Notes under the pieces: generated by a model | What the model was told of the DNA's origin: nothing | What the model saw: the letters and a program-made list of their open reading frames with translations, nothing else | Databases searched by the model: none | Position numbers and translations under genes: made by a program | Assembly: GCF_001698225.1 (NCBI RefSeq) | Contig: NZ_CP016594.1 | Span: 4,836,001-4,900,000, forward strand | Reading direction: 5' to 3' | Length of the DNA stretch: 64,000 nucleotides | Origin: Gordonia terrae | GTDB taxonomy: Bacteria; Actinomycetota; Actinomycetes; Mycobacteriales; Mycobacteriaceae | Shown here: positions 44,894 to 52,491 of the stretch, piece by piece | Numbering within the stretch: position 1 is the first letter of the stretch | Layout of the letters: the number at the start of each line of letters is the position of its first letter

Positions 44894-46273
44894 ATGACCG
44901 CGTCAGTATCGGAACACCTGAACCATGTGAACTCGGTCCTCGGCGACGCGGTCGTCGACGACCGTGACGCCGGTGTCTACCGCGCCAACCGGCGGATCTT
45001 CACCGATGAGGACATCTTCGAGCTGGAGATGAAGCACATCTTCGAGGGCAACTGGATCTACCTCGCACACGAGAGTCAGGTCCCCGAGCCCGGCGACTAC
45101 TTCACCACCTACATCGGCCGGCAGCCCGTGGTCATCACCCGCGACAGGAGCGGCGAACTGCACTGCCTGATCAACGCCTGCGCGCACCGCGGCGCGATGA
45201 TCTGCCGGCGCAAGACCGACAACCGGATGACCCTCACCTGTCCGTTCCACGGGTGGACCTTCCGGAACGACGGCACGCTGCTCAAGGTCAAGGATCCGGA
45301 CGGCGCCGGGTACCCGGACAGCTTCGACGTCGACGGTTCGCACAACATGACCAAGGTCGCCCGCTTCGACAGCTACCGCGGCTTCCTGTTCGGCAGCCTG
45401 AACGACGACGTCAGTTCGCTCGGCGACCATCTCGGCGACACACGCGTCGTCATCGACATGCTCGTCGACCAGTCCCCCGAGGGACTCGAGGTCCTGCGCG
45501 GCGCATCCACCTACACCTTCGACGGGAACTGGAAGGTGCAGGCGGAGAACGGCGCTGACGGCTACCACGTCACCGCCACCCACTGGAATTACGCGGCCAC
45601 CACATCTCGACGCGGCACCGGCGAGTCGAAGAACGACACCAAGGCACTCGACGCCGGCGGCTGGGGGAAGTCCGGCGGCGGCTACTGGTCCTACCCCAAC
45701 GGTCACCTGTGTCTGTGGACCTGGGCGGCCAACCCGCAGGACCGTCCGCTGTGGGATTCGCTGGGGCAGCTCAAGGAGATACACGGCGACGCCAAGGGCG
45801 AGTTCATGGTGAAGGGTTCGCGCAACCTGTGCCTGTACCCGAACGTCTATCTGATGGACCAGTTCTCGACGCAGATCCGCCACTTCCGCCCGATCTCCCC
45901 GGACAAGACCGAGGTCACCATCTACTGCATCGCCCCCAAGGGGGAGAGCGACTCCGCACGGGTGCACCGCATCCGCCAGTACGAGGACTTCTTCAACGCC
46001 TCCGGCATGGCCACGCCCGACGACCTCGAGGAGTTCCGCTCGTGCCAGCTCACGTTCCGGGCCCAGGCCGCCCCGTGGAACGACATGAGCCGCGGTGCCG
46101 AGCACTGGTTGACCGGACCAGACGCCGTCGCCGAATCGCTGGGCATGTCCGGTGTCATCTCGGCCGGCGTCAAGAACGAGGACGAAGGCCTCTACCCCGT
46201 CCAGCACGGCTACTGGCTCGAGACCATGCGTGCTGCCGCAGCCGCCGAAGAACACGCCGCCGCGAAGCACTGA
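44894..46273 (+). CDS. benA: benzoate 1,2-dioxygenase large subunit BenA
   Basis: 459 residues, alpha subunit of a Rieske non-haem iron oxygenase. The Rieske cluster motifs CAHRGAMIC and CPFHGW (CxH...CxxH) are at about 96-123, and the mononuclear iron 2-His region lies in [16 protein letters not shown] near 219-234, with the Asp expected later. With BenB it adds O2 to benzoate to give the cis-diol carboxylate. GGAGG ten bases before ATG 44894. benB follows after 11 bases. First gene of the divergent ben operon opposite catR. Confidence 0.96.
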
Positions 46274-46284
46274 AAGGGACGGCC

Positions 46285-46842
46285 ATGACGAACATCCGCA
46301 CCGATTCCACTGCACCGATATCCACCGGAAGCAACGCCGAAGCGCCCGGAAAACTCATCACCCAGAACATGATCGAGCAGTTCCTCTACCGCGAGGCGCG
46401 CCACCTCGACGATCGCGAGTTCGAGAAGTGGCTCGACTGCTACGCCGACGACGTCGTCTACTGGATGCCGTCGTGGGACGACCGGGACCGTCTCACCGAG
46501 GACCCGCACCGTGAGATCTCACTCATCTACTACGGCAACAAGGGTGGCCTCGAGGACAGGGTGTTCCGGATCCGTACCGAGCGGTCCTCGGCGACGTCAC
46601 TGCCCGAGCCGCGGACGAGTCACAACATCACCAACGTGGAGGTCATCGACCGCCGCGGCGACCTCGTCGACGTCCGATTCAATTGGCACACGATGTATTT
46701 CCGGTACAACACGGTCGACCCGTACTACGGGACCTCGTTCTACACGATCGACTTCTCCGGCGAGCAGCCACTGATCCGGCGCAAGACGGTCGTGTTGAAG
46801 AACGACTACATCCATCACGTCGTCGACGTGTACCACTTCTGA
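46285..46842 (+). CDS. benB: benzoate 1,2-dioxygenase small subunit BenB
   Basis: 185 residues, beta subunit of the Rieske oxygenase (NTF2-like cone fold). The family sequence is clear in FLYREARHLDDREFEKWLDCYADDVVYWMPSW and HNITNVEVIDRRGDLVDVRFNW. It has a structural role in the alpha3-beta3 enzyme, without cofactor. ATG 46285, with AAAGGGACGG upstream, 11 bases after benA. 46 bases separate it from the reductase-dehydrogenase fusion. Confidence 0.96.
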   Translation: MTNIRTDSTAPISTGSNAEAPGKLITQNMIEQFLYREARHLDDREFEKWLDCYADDVVYWMPSWDDRDRLTEDPHREISLIYYGNKGGLEDRVFRIRTERSSATSLPEPRTSHNITNVEVIDRRGDLVDVRFNWHTMYFRYNTVDPYYGTSFYTIDFSGEQPLIRRKTVVLKNDYIHHVVDVYHF

Positions 46843-46888: not shown

Positions 46889-49729
46889 ATGACTGTCACC
46901 ACCGAGGCGGGTGTCCGCAGCGGCACCGGCGACGCCGACACGGCCACCCACCAGGTGGCGCTCTCCTTCGAGGACGGGGTCACCCGATTCATCACGTGCC
47001 GGGAGGATCAGACCGTCGCCGACGCATCGTACCGCCAGCGCATCAACATCCCACTCGACTGTCGCGACGGCGCATGCGGCACGTGTAAGTCGTTGTGCGA
47101 GTCCGGGGACTACGACGGCGGTACATACATCGAGGATGCGCTCACCGACGACGAGTCGGCACAGGGCTACGCGCTGCCCTGCTGCATGAAGCCCCGATCC
47201 GATCTGGTACTGCAGATCCCGGCGACGTCGGACATCGCCAAAACACAGGCGGCCAGATTCACCGGGACCGTCGCCGAACTCGACCGACTGTCGGAATCGA
47301 CCTTCCGGCTGGGCATCCGGATCGAGAACCGCGGCCGGCTGGCGTTCCTGCCGGGACAGTACGTCAACATCGAGATCCCCGGTACCGACGACGAGCAGGG
47401 CAACCCGGTCACCCGGTCCTACTCGTTCGCCAACGGACCGCACGAGGATCGGCTGATCTTCCTGATCAAACTGACGCCCGGCGGTGCCATGTCGACCTAT
47501 CTCACCCAACGTGCCACACGGGGCGAGCCGATCGCCTTCACCGGGCCGCACGGCTCCTTCTTCCTCCGCGAGGCGGACCGGCCGGTGTTGTTGCTGGCCG
47601 GCGGAACCGGCCTCGCCCCCATCCTGTCCATGCTCCGGAAGATGCACTCGGACAACAGCCGGCGCAAGGTCCACCTCATCTATGGAGTGTCGACAGATAC
47701 CGACCTGGTGGCAGTCGACGAGATCGACTGGTTCGTCGGCAAACTGCCTGGATTCACATGGGAACACTGCGTCTCCGATCCCGCGAGCTCGGCACCCAAC
47801 AAGGGTTACGTGATGAGTCTGATCGAACCGGCCCACCTCAATGACGGCGACGTGGCGATCTACCTGTGCGGGCCTCCTCCGATGGTGGAGGCGGTACGAC
47901 AGCACGTCGCGCAGGCGGGTATCGAGCCGACCGGCTTCTACTACGAGAAGTTCGCACTCGCCGCGCACACGGCTCCGGATACCGAGGCCGGCTCAGACGC
48001 CGGCAGCGAGATCAACACGGAGGTCGTTCGCGACGAGGTGTCCGAGGTCGCCGCGCCGGAAGCCGCTCTGTCGCACGATGCTGACGCCTCGGGTTTCGTG
48101 GATACCCTTCTACTCGCACCGGACGCACGGGCCATCGCGGGACAAGAGACGCTCCCGTCCTCGGACCTCGACGCGTGGTCTGGCCCCCGCCCGGTCGCAA
48201 CCGAGGACACCCGCACCTGTATCGGTGGTCAACCCGTCTGGCGCAGCGGTTCTGGCGCCACTGCACTCGACTCGGCGACGGATTGGTTGCAGGCCACCGC
48301 CGCGCAACCGGGTGGAGCGGCCCGGTCGATAGCCGGGCAGGAGATGTTCGCCGCGACGGACATCACCCAGCTTTACGAGTCCATCGAGGCGACCACCAAC
48401 CCGCCGGTGAGTCCCGACAACGAAGCGCCGCCCGCGTCGACCGTCGTCGGATCACACGGATATCAGATCGGCGAGGAGCATCCGGGGATCTCGGAGTCCG
48501 ACGCACTCTTCGAGGCGCGGGCCGCCCTCGAATTGGGCGCACTGGAACTGACTTTCGGCCGGTTGTCCACCCAGCAACTCGTCGGCTACCGACTGCTCGC
48601 CGACGCCACGGCGCCCTACGTCGACGGTGACCGGTTCGTGGATTCCGCCGAGTACACCGAGACCAACGCCGCGTTCCACGACTATCTGTTCACCCTCACC
48701 GGCAACGACCACCTACTCGAGGCCTACAAAGCTCTCGGTGTGAAGGGCCGGATGAGCGAGGTGTTGCGGAACGCGACGTGGTGCCATCCCCGTTGCGCCC
48801 AGGACCACCTCGACATCGTGACCGCGTTCGAATCCGGCGATCACGACGCTGCGCGCGGGCTGATCGTCGCCCACGCCGACCGCTCGAAGCAGACCATGCG
48901 ACGAGCGATGTCCGACGAGATCGGCTCGCCGCGTCCGCGTTTCGTCACGCCGGGTCGGTTCGCGGGCAAGGTCGTGGTGATCACCGGTGCCGCGCAGGGC
49001 ATCGGGGAGCAGACCGCGCGACGGATCAGCGCCGAAGGCGGGCGGGTCGTGCTCGCCGATCGTTCCGACCTCGTCGACGAGGTCGCTCGCGATCTCGCCG
49101 ACACGGGCTCCGGGGCGGTGTCGGCCGTCGCCGATCTCGAGACCTTCGCCGGAGCCGAGGCCGTCGTCCGGCGCGCCGTAGACACCTTCGGTCGCGTCGA
49201 CGTCCTCATCAACAATGTGGGCGGCGCGATCAACTTCAAACCGTTCACCGAGTTCACCGACGAACAGATCCGCGCCGAGATCGACCGGTCACTGATGACC
49301 ACGCTGTTCACCTGCCGCGCGGCGCTGCCGTCGATGGTGCGGTCAGGACGCGGCGTGATAGTCAACGTCTCGTCCGCCGCCACCCGGGGAGTTCATCGAA
49401 TTCCCTACTCCGCGGCCAAGGGTGCGGTCAACGCGCTGACCGCGTCGCTGGCGCTCGAGTACGCCGACCACGGCATCAGGGTTGTGGCCACGGCACCGGG
49501 CGGAACCGAGGCACCACCGCGTCGCATCTCACGCGGCACCCCGGAACCGCGCAGCGTCACCGAAACACAGTGGTACCAGGCGCACATCGACCAGACCCTG
49601 TCGTCGTCGACGATGCACCGGTACGGCACGCTCGACGAGCAGGCGGCAGCCCTCTGTTTCCTCGCCTCGGACGAGGCGTCCTACATCACCGGGACCGTGC
49701 TCCCTGTCGCCGGCGGTGACCAGGGTTGA
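46889..49729 (+). CDS. benCD: BenC-FCD-BenD fusion: benzoate dioxygenase reductase plus cis-diol dehydrogenase
   Basis: 946 residues in one unbroken frame. Residues 1-100: 2Fe-2S ferredoxin (CRDGACGTCKSLC). About 115-355: FAD/NAD reductase (RSYSFANGP, LLAGGTGLAPILS, LCGPPPMVEAV). About 356-520: a low-order, Ala/Glu/Asp-rich linker with the recurring motif ARxIAGQE at about 412 and 477 and a related RTCIGGQ near 440. About 525-680: an FCD-like helical domain (FHDYLFTLTGNDHLLEAY, ARGLIVAHADRS) with the His residues that bind metal in GntR regulators. About 690-946: short-chain dehydrogenase (GAAQGIGEQTARR, NNVGG, SSAA and YSAAKG), the BenD part that oxidises the cis-diol to catechol. BenC and BenD are normally separate proteins, of about 340 and 260 residues. 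The next gene starts 29 bases on. Confidence 0.92.
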   Translation: MTVTTEAGVRSGTGDADTATHQVALSFEDGVTRFITCREDQTVADASYRQRINIPLDCRDGACGTCKSLCESGDYDGGTYIEDALTDDESAQGYALPCCMKPRSDLVLQIPATSDIAKTQAARFTGTVAELDRLSESTFRLGIRIENRGRLAFLPGQYVNIEIPGTDDEQGNPVTRSYSFANGPHEDRLIFLIKLTPGGAMSTYLTQRATRGEPIAFTGPHGSFFLREADRPVLLLAGGTGLAPILSMLRKMHSDNSRRKVHLIYGVSTDTDLVAVDEIDWFVGKLPGFTWEHCVSDPASSAPNKGYVMSLIEPAHLNDGDVAIYLCGPPPMVEAVRQHVAQAGIEPTGFYYEKFALAAHTAPDTEAGSDAGSEINTEVVRDEVSEVAAPEAALSHDADASGFVDTLLLAPDARAIAGQETLPSSDLDAWSGPRPVATEDTRTCIGGQPVWRSGSGATALDSATDWLQATAAQPGGAARSIAGQEMFAATDITQLYESIEATTNPPVSPDNEAPPASTVVGSHGYQIGEEHPGISESDALFEARAALELGALELTFGRLSTQQLVGYRLLADATAPYVDGDRFVDSAEYTETNAAFHDYLFTLTGNDHLLEAYKALGVKGRMSEVLRNATWCHPRCAQDHLDIVTAFESGDHDAARGLIVAHADRSKQTMRRAMSDEIGSPRPRFVTPGRFAGKVVVITGAAQGIGEQTARRISAEGGRVVLADRSDLVDEVARDLADTGSGAVSAVADLETFAGAEAVVRRAVDTFGRVDVLINNVGGAINFKPFTEFTDEQIRAEIDRSLMTTLFTCRAALPSMVRSGRGVIVNVSSAATRGVHRIPYSAAKGAVNALTASLALEYADHGIRVVATAPGGTEAPPRRISRGTPEPRSVTETQWYQAHIDQTLSSSTMHRYGTLDEQAAALCFLASDEASYITGTVLPVAGGDQG

Positions 49730-49758: not shown

Positions 49759-52491
49759 ATGATGGTCACCGGCGGGTGTGTCGGCCGCGACCGCGAGATC
49801 GAGTTGCTGTCCTCGCGGCTCGATGCCGTGTCGGAGGCAGGTGTGCTGGCCGTCACGGGAGATCCCGGCATCGGCAAGTCGACACTGCTGAGGCACCTGG
49901 TCCGGCGGCGATTGTCCGCTCCGACAACCGGTCCCACGTTGTGGGCCGCGGTGTCACCATGGCGAGCGCACACGCCCGGCGCGCTCATCCGGCAGCTGGT
50001 ACAGGACCGGTCCGACGTCACACCTGCGACCGATACCGTCCCGTCCCCGGACGACCTGCTCGACGGACTGCTCGCAGCGGTCGCGGCTCCCGCGGAGCCA
50101 TCGAGCGAGATGACGAGTGACATGGCCGCACTCATCGCCATCGACGATGCCGACCTCGCCGACGAGGAGTCCCTGCAGACGCTGGTCTCGCTGACGCGTG
50201 AGCACCGGGATCGTCGAATCCTGGTCATCGTCACCATGTCTCGTCCGGGCGCCCGGCTCATCGGCAGTGCGCTCGAGGAGTTGCGGCTCGACGGCCTGGA
50301 CACACAGGGCACGGCGGACATCGCCGCGCAGCGTGGCATCGTGCTGCACCCGTCGATGCAGACGGAACTGGCCCGGCACACCGGCGGTAATCCACGCGAC
50401 ATCGTGGCCCTGCTCGACGAGGTCCCGGCGCTCACCTGGTCCCGCACCGGCGTGGCGCTGCCTGCACCGTCCCACGTCGTCGTCGCGGTCCGAGACCGAT
50501 TGCCGGACAACGGCACGCCCGCCCGATCGCTGATCGAGGCGCTCGCCATCCTCGACCCTGCCGAACCCCTGGCCACCGCGATCGCCCTCGCCGGGATCAC
50601 GGACCCGCTCGGCGCCATCGACGACGCGCAGGCGACCGGACTGGTGACGGTCGACCGAGCGCTGACACCCGCAGAGGCGCAACCGCGCCTGGCCGGCCCG
50701 CTGGTCCGAGCCGCCGTCCTCGAGGTCCTCGGCACGAAAGCAGTGGGCGAGGCCCACCGCCGGGCCGCGGACACGGTCGACGACCCCGCCCGGCAACTCC
50801 ATCACCGCGTCGCGGCCACCTCGACCGTCGACGCCACCCTCGCCGACGACCTCGCCGCTCTCGCACGGGCCCGCGGCGCCGACGGCGCGTGGGCCGAGGC
50901 CGCCGGGCTGTACCGGCAGGCGGGCCGACTCACCCCCGACCCGCTGCGGCGCGACACCAGGATGACGCTCGCGGTCGATTCGCTACTCGCCGCGGGAGAT
51001 TGCACAGGCGCCGGCGCCCTGGTCCCGACCGTGGAGAGCCTGCGCGAGACACCCCTGCGCAACGCGACCCTGGCGTACCTCGCCATCCTGCGGGGCCGGT
51101 CGGCGGAGGCACAGCTGCGTCTCGACCGGGCGTGGGCGATCGTCAACGTCGAGCGCGAACCCGATGTCGCCGCCCTGATCGCGCAGCGTCACGTCCTGCA
51201 CAATCTGGTCCGATGCCAGGGCACCGAACTGGTCGACTGGGCCGATCGCGCGAACGCGATGGCCGACGCCGGGTCGGCCGCCCGAGTGGAGGCCGCCGTC
51301 ATCCGCGGGCTGGGACTGGCGTGGTCGGGACACCCGGATGCCGCACGCGCCGAGTACGAGACGGTCTCGGAGCGCGTCCGCTACGGAGCGCAGGCGCAGC
51401 GCGCGATCATGGGACGCGGCTGGCTGCGCCTCGGTCTCGACGAGATCGACGCCGCCCGCAGCGATCTCGAGACCGCCGTGTCGATGGCACAGCTCGGCGG
51501 GTCCACCCGGATCACCCTGTGGGCACTGGCCTGGCTCGCCCGCGTCCAGTTCCTCACCGGCGACTGGGATGGCGCCCTGCGTGGCGTCGAGGCCGGTCGC
51601 GCTCTGGCCCGCAGCAGTGGCATCGCGTTGACCACTCCCCTCCTCAACTGGACTGCGAGCCAGATCCATTCGCTGCGCGGCGACTGGGAGGACGCCCACC
51701 GGAGTGTGGCACAGAGCAGCACCTCCATCGGCGACTACGAGATCATGCGGATACCCGACCTGCTGGCCCGGGCCCAGCTGGCCGAGGCCGCAGCGGATTA
51801 CGGCAAGGTCCGACGAGTACTCACCCCGCTGGTCGCAATGGCCGAGTCCGTCCCGGCGCTCTCCGAGCCGGGCTTGTGGCCGTGGGTCGACGTCCTCGCC
51901 AACGCACTGGTGCTCGAGGGGCGACACGACGACGCCGACGATCTGCTGTGTCGCTACGAGTCCCGGTCCGCCGAGCGGGGACACCGATCGTCGGCTGCCC
52001 GGATGAAGTACGCACGTGGTCGCCTCCTTGGCGCGACCGGTGACATCCACGGCGCACGACGGACCTTCGAGGAGGGCATCGAACTCCTCGACGGTCTCGG
52101 GCTCCGCTACGACCAGGCACGGGTGAACTTCGCCTACGGCCAGACGTTGCGACGCGCCGGCAAGCGCCGCGCCGCGGACGCCGTCATCGGGACTGCCCGC
52201 GATCTGTATCTGTCGCTGGGCGCCACCACCTATGTCGAACGCTGCGAACGCGAACTGAAGGCCGGCGGTCTCGCGACGTCTCGTGGCGAGAACCACACCG
52301 TCGCAACGGGTGCCGTCGAACTCACGCCCCAGGAGGAGGCGGTGACCGCCCTCGTCGCGCGTGGCCTGTCGAACCGGGAGGTGGCGGCCGAACTCTACAT
52401 CTCACCGAAGACGGTGCAGTACCACCTGACCCGGATCTACGCGAAACTCGGCGTGAAGTCCCGCGCCGAGCTGGCGGCCTCGCGCCGGTGA
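49759..52491 (+). CDS. LuxR-family LAL regulator, BenR-like
   Basis: 910 residues, size and layout of the large ATP-binding LuxR (LAL) regulators. Walker A GDPGIGKSTLL near 34-44, Walker B-like ALIAIDDAD near 123-131, a long helical repeat section (TPR-like) about 330-820, and a C-terminal LuxR helix-turn-helix about 850-905 (LTPQEEAVTALVARGLSNREVA, ISPKTVQYHLTRIYAKLGV). In Corynebacterium and Rhodococcus a LAL regulator next to benABCD activates benzoate catabolism. Context supports the same role here, but I leave the symbol empty because it rests on position. The ATG at 49759 is followed by a second ATG. Confidence 0.88.
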   Translation: MMVTGGCVGRDREIELLSSRLDAVSEAGVLAVTGDPGIGKSTLLRHLVRRRLSAPTTGPTLWAAVSPWRAHTPGALIRQLVQDRSDVTPATDTVPSPDDLLDGLLAAVAAPAEPSSEMTSDMAALIAIDDADLADEESLQTLVSLTREHRDRRILVIVTMSRPGARLIGSALEELRLDGLDTQGTADIAAQRGIVLHPSMQTELARHTGGNPRDIVALLDEVPALTWSRTGVALPAPSHVVVAVRDRLPDNGTPARSLIEALAILDPAEPLATAIALAGITDPLGAIDDAQATGLVTVDRALTPAEAQPRLAGPLVRAAVLEVLGTKAVGEAHRRAADTVDDPARQLHHRVAATSTVDATLADDLAALARARGADGAWAEAAGLYRQAGRLTPDPLRRDTRMTLAVDSLLAAGDCTGAGALVPTVESLRETPLRNATLAYLAILRGRSAEAQLRLDRAWAIVNVEREPDVAALIAQRHVLHNLVRCQGTELVDWADRANAMADAGSAARVEAAVIRGLGLAWSGHPDAARAEYETVSERVRYGAQAQRAIMGRGWLRLGLDEIDAARSDLETAVSMAQLGGSTRITLWALAWLARVQFLTGDWDGALRGVEAGRALARSSGIALTTPLLNWTASQIHSLRGDWEDAHRSVAQSSTSIGDYEIMRIPDLLARAQLAEAAADYGKVRRVLTPLVAMAESVPALSEPGLWPWVDVLANALVLEGRHDDADDLLCRYESRSAERGHRSSAARMKYARGRLLGATGDIHGARRTFEEGIELLDGLGLRYDQARVNFAYGQTLRRAGKRRAADAVIGTARDLYLSLGATTYVERCERELKAGGLATSRGENHTVATGAVELTPQEEAVTALVARGLSNREVAAELYISPKTVQYHLTRIYAKLGVKSRAELAASRR

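Follow-up and report, generated by a model that had tools for sequence, protein, structure and literature searches.

The benzoate (ben) genes on Pseudomonas and Paracoccus plasmids lie in the order benA, benB, benC, benD, with the dioxygenase reductase BenC and the cis-diol dehydrogenase BenD as separate proteins, without FCD domain or fusion; in Paracoccus, benC and benD share 4 bases. The same enzymes in the same order are found in the stretch analysed here, 64,000 nucleotides of Gordonia terrae (GCF_001698225.1, NZ_CP016594.1, 4,836,001-4,900,000; "the window", whose own positions serve as coordinates), but there BenC, an FCD domain and BenD form a single protein. The fusion as such is already published and not new. 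The report on Gordonia alkanivorans YC-RL2, from the same genus, describes the same architecture, a benC-benD fusion with an FCD domain whose GntR character was named by its authors (AMB Express 2019, PMC6362181). In its consulted parts this is a remark drawn from genome annotation, with no survey, history, residues, linker repeats, mechanism or functional work. In the consulted part of a 2025 Rhodococcus paper (PMC11858498) the benC product appears as an FCD domain-containing protein. In the open-licence literature, supplements aside, the matches listed included no work on what FCD does in BenC or on fusions of a flavin reductase with FCD. Added here are the order of the fusion events, an invariant pocket, the kinship with FCD domains of flavin reductases and the linker repeats.

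The measured precedent is the reductase C1 of the 4-hydroxyphenylacetate (4-HPA) 3-hydroxylase (HPAH) of Acinetobacter baumannii. In the consulted parts of two reports (PMC10816480, PMC6165268), substrate binding to its C-terminal MarR domain relieves self-inhibition. Like BenC-FCD, this protein is an oxygenase reductase that carries a ligand-binding domain of regulator type at its C-terminal end. The likeness is one of logic only: C1 joins a flavin reductase to MarR, whereas the fusion joins a 2Fe-2S/FAD reductase to FCD, with neither Flavin_Reduct nor MarR among its Pfam matches. By analogy with C1, where gating was measured, and because the steady partner of the FCD domain is a reductase feeding an oxygenase, we read the FCD domain as an effector-binding gate on BenC, with the next pathway enzyme fused on; the chances that this holds are about even. 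The FCD fold itself is common to metal-binding regulators, namely NanR, TM0439, CitO, DgoR and, by fold only, DhdR; in the sources as consulted these are DNA-binding proteins, whereas the fusion has no DNA-binding part. In NanR the ligand on the zinc is held through its carboxyl and hydroxyl groups, according to the part of the report used here (PMC8012715).

The fusion gene (Table 1) is open from ATG to stop over 946 codons, as the sequence-only reading had it, and all its parts are recognised by profiles. The BenC equivalog NF040810 scored 478.4 bits (cut-off 430) and the BenD equivalog NF040811 scored 412.4 bits (cut-off 380), both in NCBIfam. The FCD-like domain proposed for residues 525-680 was recovered as PF07729 at residues 540-664 with 54.2 bits (cut-off 24.3, E 2.5e-14). 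The best 120 of the 1032 proteins over threshold comprise the query and 119 homologues with 64-87% identity across 98-100% of the query, carrying precomputed FCD, BenC-type and SDR domains; the genera named among them include Gordonia, Aldersonia, Antrihabitans, Mycobacterium, Mycolicibacterium, Nocardia, Nocardioides and Skermania. Sequencing or frame error is excluded because these homologues carry all parts in one protein; the same conservation of the fused frame rules out a frameshift or assembly artefact. Automatic annotation names them BenC or BenD alone, and the architecture would refine such annotation.

The fusion is widespread in actinobacteria. A survey of frame lengths in relatives, suggested with the sequence-only reading, gave BenC over cut-off in 30 of 298 genomes of the window's order, 27 of them with frames of fused length (at least 868 residues) that show the FCD signature; the other three frames measure 661, 483 and 408 residues. 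A sample of the phylum yielded BenC in 4 of 396 genomes, three of fused length (two of these shared with the order sample, in addition to the window's own genome, which is counted in both) and a fourth of 538 residues with an FCD-like tail by eye. Among named genomes scanned with the FCD profile, the best 80 of 209 relatives were kept, 77 being full BenC-FCD-BenD frames as classified by script and the other three frames of 881-908 residues with the linker motif.

Two architectures are found. The 276 proteins in hand include 220 with recognisable BenC and FCD parts: 155 BenC-FCD-BenD, 63 BenC-FCD and 2 unclear. These counts come from the best rows of two hit lists (queries: the fusion and a BenC-FCD protein) sorted by regular expressions, and are not frequencies. 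The named proteins that stop after FCD belong to Rhodococcus, Dietzia and Arthrobacter, with others coming from assembled genomes that bear the labels Aldersonia and Nocardioidaceae. At the one such locus examined (L013), whose protein is identical to Rhodococcus phenolicus entry P0161 across the part searched, BenD is a separate gene and its start overlaps the benC-FCD stop as ATGA, so that the fusion could arise if one stop were lost. In a tree built from the BenC part (84 rows; outgroup of two proteobacterial BenC, both long) the 13 BenC-FCD rows group together (support 96/45), and the 67 fused rows form one clade with two FCD-less rows (98/98). The simplest history from these sequences would be that FCD joined BenC first and BenD was fused once, later. 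Early fusion with later splitting is a possible alternative; the support of the BenC-FCD clade is only 96/45.

The two FCD-less rows come from genomes G314 and G240 (loci L043 and L044), in which BenC ends just past a single RCIAGQ motif and BenD lies directly behind in another frame. Both fall inside the fused clade, and most simply their FCD would have been lost later from the ben locus. Such loss while BenC remained is what would be expected if FCD were a functionless passenger of an old gene fusion. That is very improbable, as across 67 fused proteins FCD is as strongly conserved as the catalytic parts.

The conservation includes a putative pocket. R544, N593, H597, H640 and H662 are the same in all 80 aligned homologues, and the histidine triad that marks metal-binding FCD domains, seen in the sequence-only reading, is present. 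The subgroup signature D/N-x3-H, H, H is found at the spacing of NanR and TM0439; H640 and H662 are 22 residues apart, like H222/H244 of NanR and H174/H196 of TM0439 in the material consulted. N593, H597, H640 and H662 align with the zinc ligands of NanR in a weak match (FCD profile against PDB, E 0.14, among chance rows), the first ligand being Asn here and Asp in NanR; when the FCD sequence alone was searched against PDB, nothing was returned to E 1. The predicted structure is all-helical, as is the FCD fold, with DhdR as top fold match and GntR regulators also among the matches. Most likely the domain would hold a divalent metal through N593, H597, H640 and H662, with R544 near the carboxylate of a ligand.

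The helical bundle of NanR serves effector binding and dimerisation alike (PMC8012715, as far as consulted), and FCD could merely dimerise or tether reductase and dehydrogenase in one assembly with its pocket unused; the linker repeats described below also resemble docking elements. A mere dimerisation module would not need the five invariant pocket residues, and we consider this unlikely. FCD is familiar mainly from GntR regulators, which also appear among the fold matches, and its GntR-type part might let the fusion moonlight in transcription regulation, as a trigger enzyme. This is extremely improbable and was rejected for lack of a winged helix: Pfam searched to E 1 gave no GntR or HTH family on the fusion, so that it is no member of the GntR regulators, and in the full predicted model residues 357-538 hold a single helix of five residues, with no winged-helix helices ahead of FCD. 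Searched by itself against proteins, the FCD piece (179 residues; lengths about 0.55-1.75x) gave 40 matches at 51-93% identity, 21 with an FCD domain and none with a GntR domain; by their identity these look like pieces of ben proteins.

Two cysteines, C632 and C636 (48782-48796), precede the second His and are Cys in most fused proteins without being a strict pair. Each position was Cys in 65 of 67 proteins of the first sample; the fused proteins in hand comprise 129 with C-C, 19 with C-V and 3 with V-C, 11 more being probably misreads of the regular expression. Residue 632 is Val or Ile in 64 of 69 BenC-FCD-sized proteins. A disulfide or redox switch was dropped on account of the C-V and V-C variants among the fused proteins.

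The nearest FCD domains to that of ben, among those found, are also carried by oxygenase reductases and not by regulators, which suggests that the domain controls electron supply. The ben FCD profile was run against 41 related genomes. Apart from ben itself, its top match was a 404-residue frame in genome G052 (E 2.4e-14), comprising a flavin reductase (PF01613), a weak GntR match and FCD; further matches were at 9.6e-9 and weaker, and the three looked at were regulator-like. Full-length relatives of this flavin reductase-FCD protein were identified by a looser search of the order in at least 6 of 298 genomes, G052 itself among them, and in none of 246 in a class-wide search at E 1e-60; one more, with the annotation flavin reductase, lies on a plasmid of Dietzia lutea. 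At all six genomic loci a flavin monooxygenase was found within the inspected 13-18 kb, luciferase-type in five and HpaB in one; it is the divergently oriented next gene in G052, G219 and G235. In two genomes the gene adjoins a riboflavin synthesis gene (DHBP synthase/GTP cyclohydrolase II; L187:4271-5581 and L183:7205-8443). A Pseudarthrobacter chlorophenolicus plasmid carries a flavin reductase of about 260 residues (L182:3019-3798), whose match to the flavin reductase-FCD fusion passes the reductase part and ends before FCD.

In a tree of FCD domains (45 rows, 144 columns; several long branches flagged by the program) the 20 ben and seven flavin reductase domains lie on one side and 18 GntR-type domains on the other (99/97), the latter drawn from a few genomes by how they matched the ben profile and labelled GntR-type for lacking a reductase motif. 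The ben rows stand alone with support 98/97; the flavin reductase rows form no clade of their own, so that ben may nest among them. Within this sample the tree shows the ben and flavin-reductase FCD domains to be akin. The latter differ in their Flavin_Reduct domain, in a weak winged-helix match (GntR at E 0.0007, below cut-off, in one protein scanned loosely) and in the three-His site, complete in G209 and G057 and partial in the other five; the Arg of the first helix is kept in all seven.

The sequence-only reading had seen the fusion as a link between electron donor and product oxidation. This was given up, since many BenC-FCD proteins lack BenD and related domains sit on flavin reductases; the sensor goes with the reductase. 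The same facts bear on the idea of FCD as an intermediate holder or channel, not a switch, which would bind the cis-diol product of BenABC and pass it to the fused BenD. FCD does directly precede BenD, metal-binding FCD domains with alpha-hydroxy-acid ligands are known (NanR; DhdR, the top fold match), and the cis-diol is by general chemistry such an acid. A channel would want FCD beside BenD, whereas 63 of the 220 classified proteins carry it on BenC without BenD, and no SDR domain was found in the one kin flavin reductase scanned loosely. We regard this idea as quite unlikely.

In the gate that we prefer, FCD, without a DNA-binding domain, would bind a small carboxylate of the benzoate pathway, and binding would shift it against BenC. 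The shift would alter NADH oxidation or electron delivery to BenAB. Reductase activity would then track substrate supply or product build-up, with less NADH and oxygen wasted. Among benzoate, the diol and catechol, only the cis-diol is an alpha-hydroxy acid. We lean slightly towards it over benzoate because its carboxylate and hydroxyl can chelate metal, as in NanR; benzoate is possible and would fit the substrate-stimulated HPAH reductase. The enzyme with a regulator-type sensor domain proposed in the sequence-only reading thus stands as the best-supported reading, in which ligand binding and an effect on activity are putative parts. Electron flow that is not matched by substrate turnover can cause Rieske oxygenases to waste NADH and form peroxide. 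A ligand gate built into the reductase, if true, would be a natural answer to this waste and a part for engineering, and a transcription-factor sensor domain would have been turned into an enzyme regulator, with one FCD lineage on two reductase types.

The 165-residue linker of the sequence-only reading is there but not plain, as it carries conserved RxIAGQ repeats. Mean pairwise identity of the linker is 0.305 across 67 fused homologues. The linkers of 156 fused proteins have on average 2.01 copies of the strict motif R-x-[IV]-[AG]-G-Q (0.0008 when shuffled), with a spacing of mostly 29-37 residues; 8 of these proteins lack it. The motif is missing from 62 of 66 BenC-FCD-sized proteins; the other four (661-717 residues) have three copies, and two of these (P0230, P0246) also match SDR domains, so that they resemble truncated fusions. 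The repeats are thus almost confined to the fused clade. In 20 BenC-FCD proteins (P0207 among them; the named ones from Dietzia) 2-3 copies of another repeat, IxARPxG(Y/F), stand in place of the IAGQ repeats. A linker profile run against 41 genomes gave 13 strong matches (E 3e-19 or better), all in frames of at least 930 residues, the next best being E 0.0016; at 80 named loci six frames other than the fusion bore the motif, as RLVGGQ-type look-alikes. On these results a general targeting tag was rejected.

Each repeat is drawn as a short strand-turn-strand in both models (block pLDDT, the predicted confidence, 51-74), by which structured repeats are only suggested; docking or hairpin elements are possible. 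On a wider and tentative proposal, doubtful at present, the reductase-associated FCD domains would be a distinct family of effector-binding modules of regulator type, serving as ligand-controlled electron-supply gates on two unrelated kinds of oxygenase reductase, 2Fe-2S/FAD BenC and flavin reductases, and in ben the repeats would dock the oxygenase, about three repeats to its threefold symmetry, giving a tethered benzoate-to-catechol assembly.

Table 1. Position of the fusion gene, its parts, neighbouring genes and related flavin reductase fusions (window positions unless a locus is given).
Feature	Position	Strand	Basis or remark
benA, benzoate dioxygenase large subunit	44894..46273	+	TIGR03229, 788.5 bits (cut-off 780.95); start picked by eye
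benB, benzoate dioxygenase small subunit	46285..46842	+	TIGR03232, 268.2 bits (cut-off 225.55); start picked by eye
benC-FCD-benD fusion gene, 946 residues	46889..49729	+	open frame, NCBIfam/Pfam, homologues
BenC part (2Fe-2S, FAD, NAD domains), residues 21-356	46949..47956	+	NF040810
Linker, residues 357-522	47957..48454	+	mostly low predicted confidence (AlphaFold2)
Linker repeat 1, RAIAGQ, residues 414-419	48128..48145	+	motif statistics
Linker repeat 2 (degenerate), TCIGGQ, residues 443-448	48215..48232	+	alignment; position counted by hand
Linker repeat 3, RSIAGQ, residues 479-484	48323..48340	+	motif statistics
Pre-FCD segment HGYQIGEEHPGISESDA, residues 523-539	48455..48505	+	strongly conserved
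FCD domain, residues 540-664	48506..48880	+	Pfam PF07729, fold match
BenD part (SDR cis-diol dehydrogenase), residues 690-946	48956..49726	+	NF040811
Large LuxR-type regulator with ATPase domain, downstream of ben	49759..52491	+	Pfam AAA_16, GerE
Flavin reductase-FCD fusions	L133:5541-6752	-	further: loci L136-L141, Dietzia lutea plasmid L181
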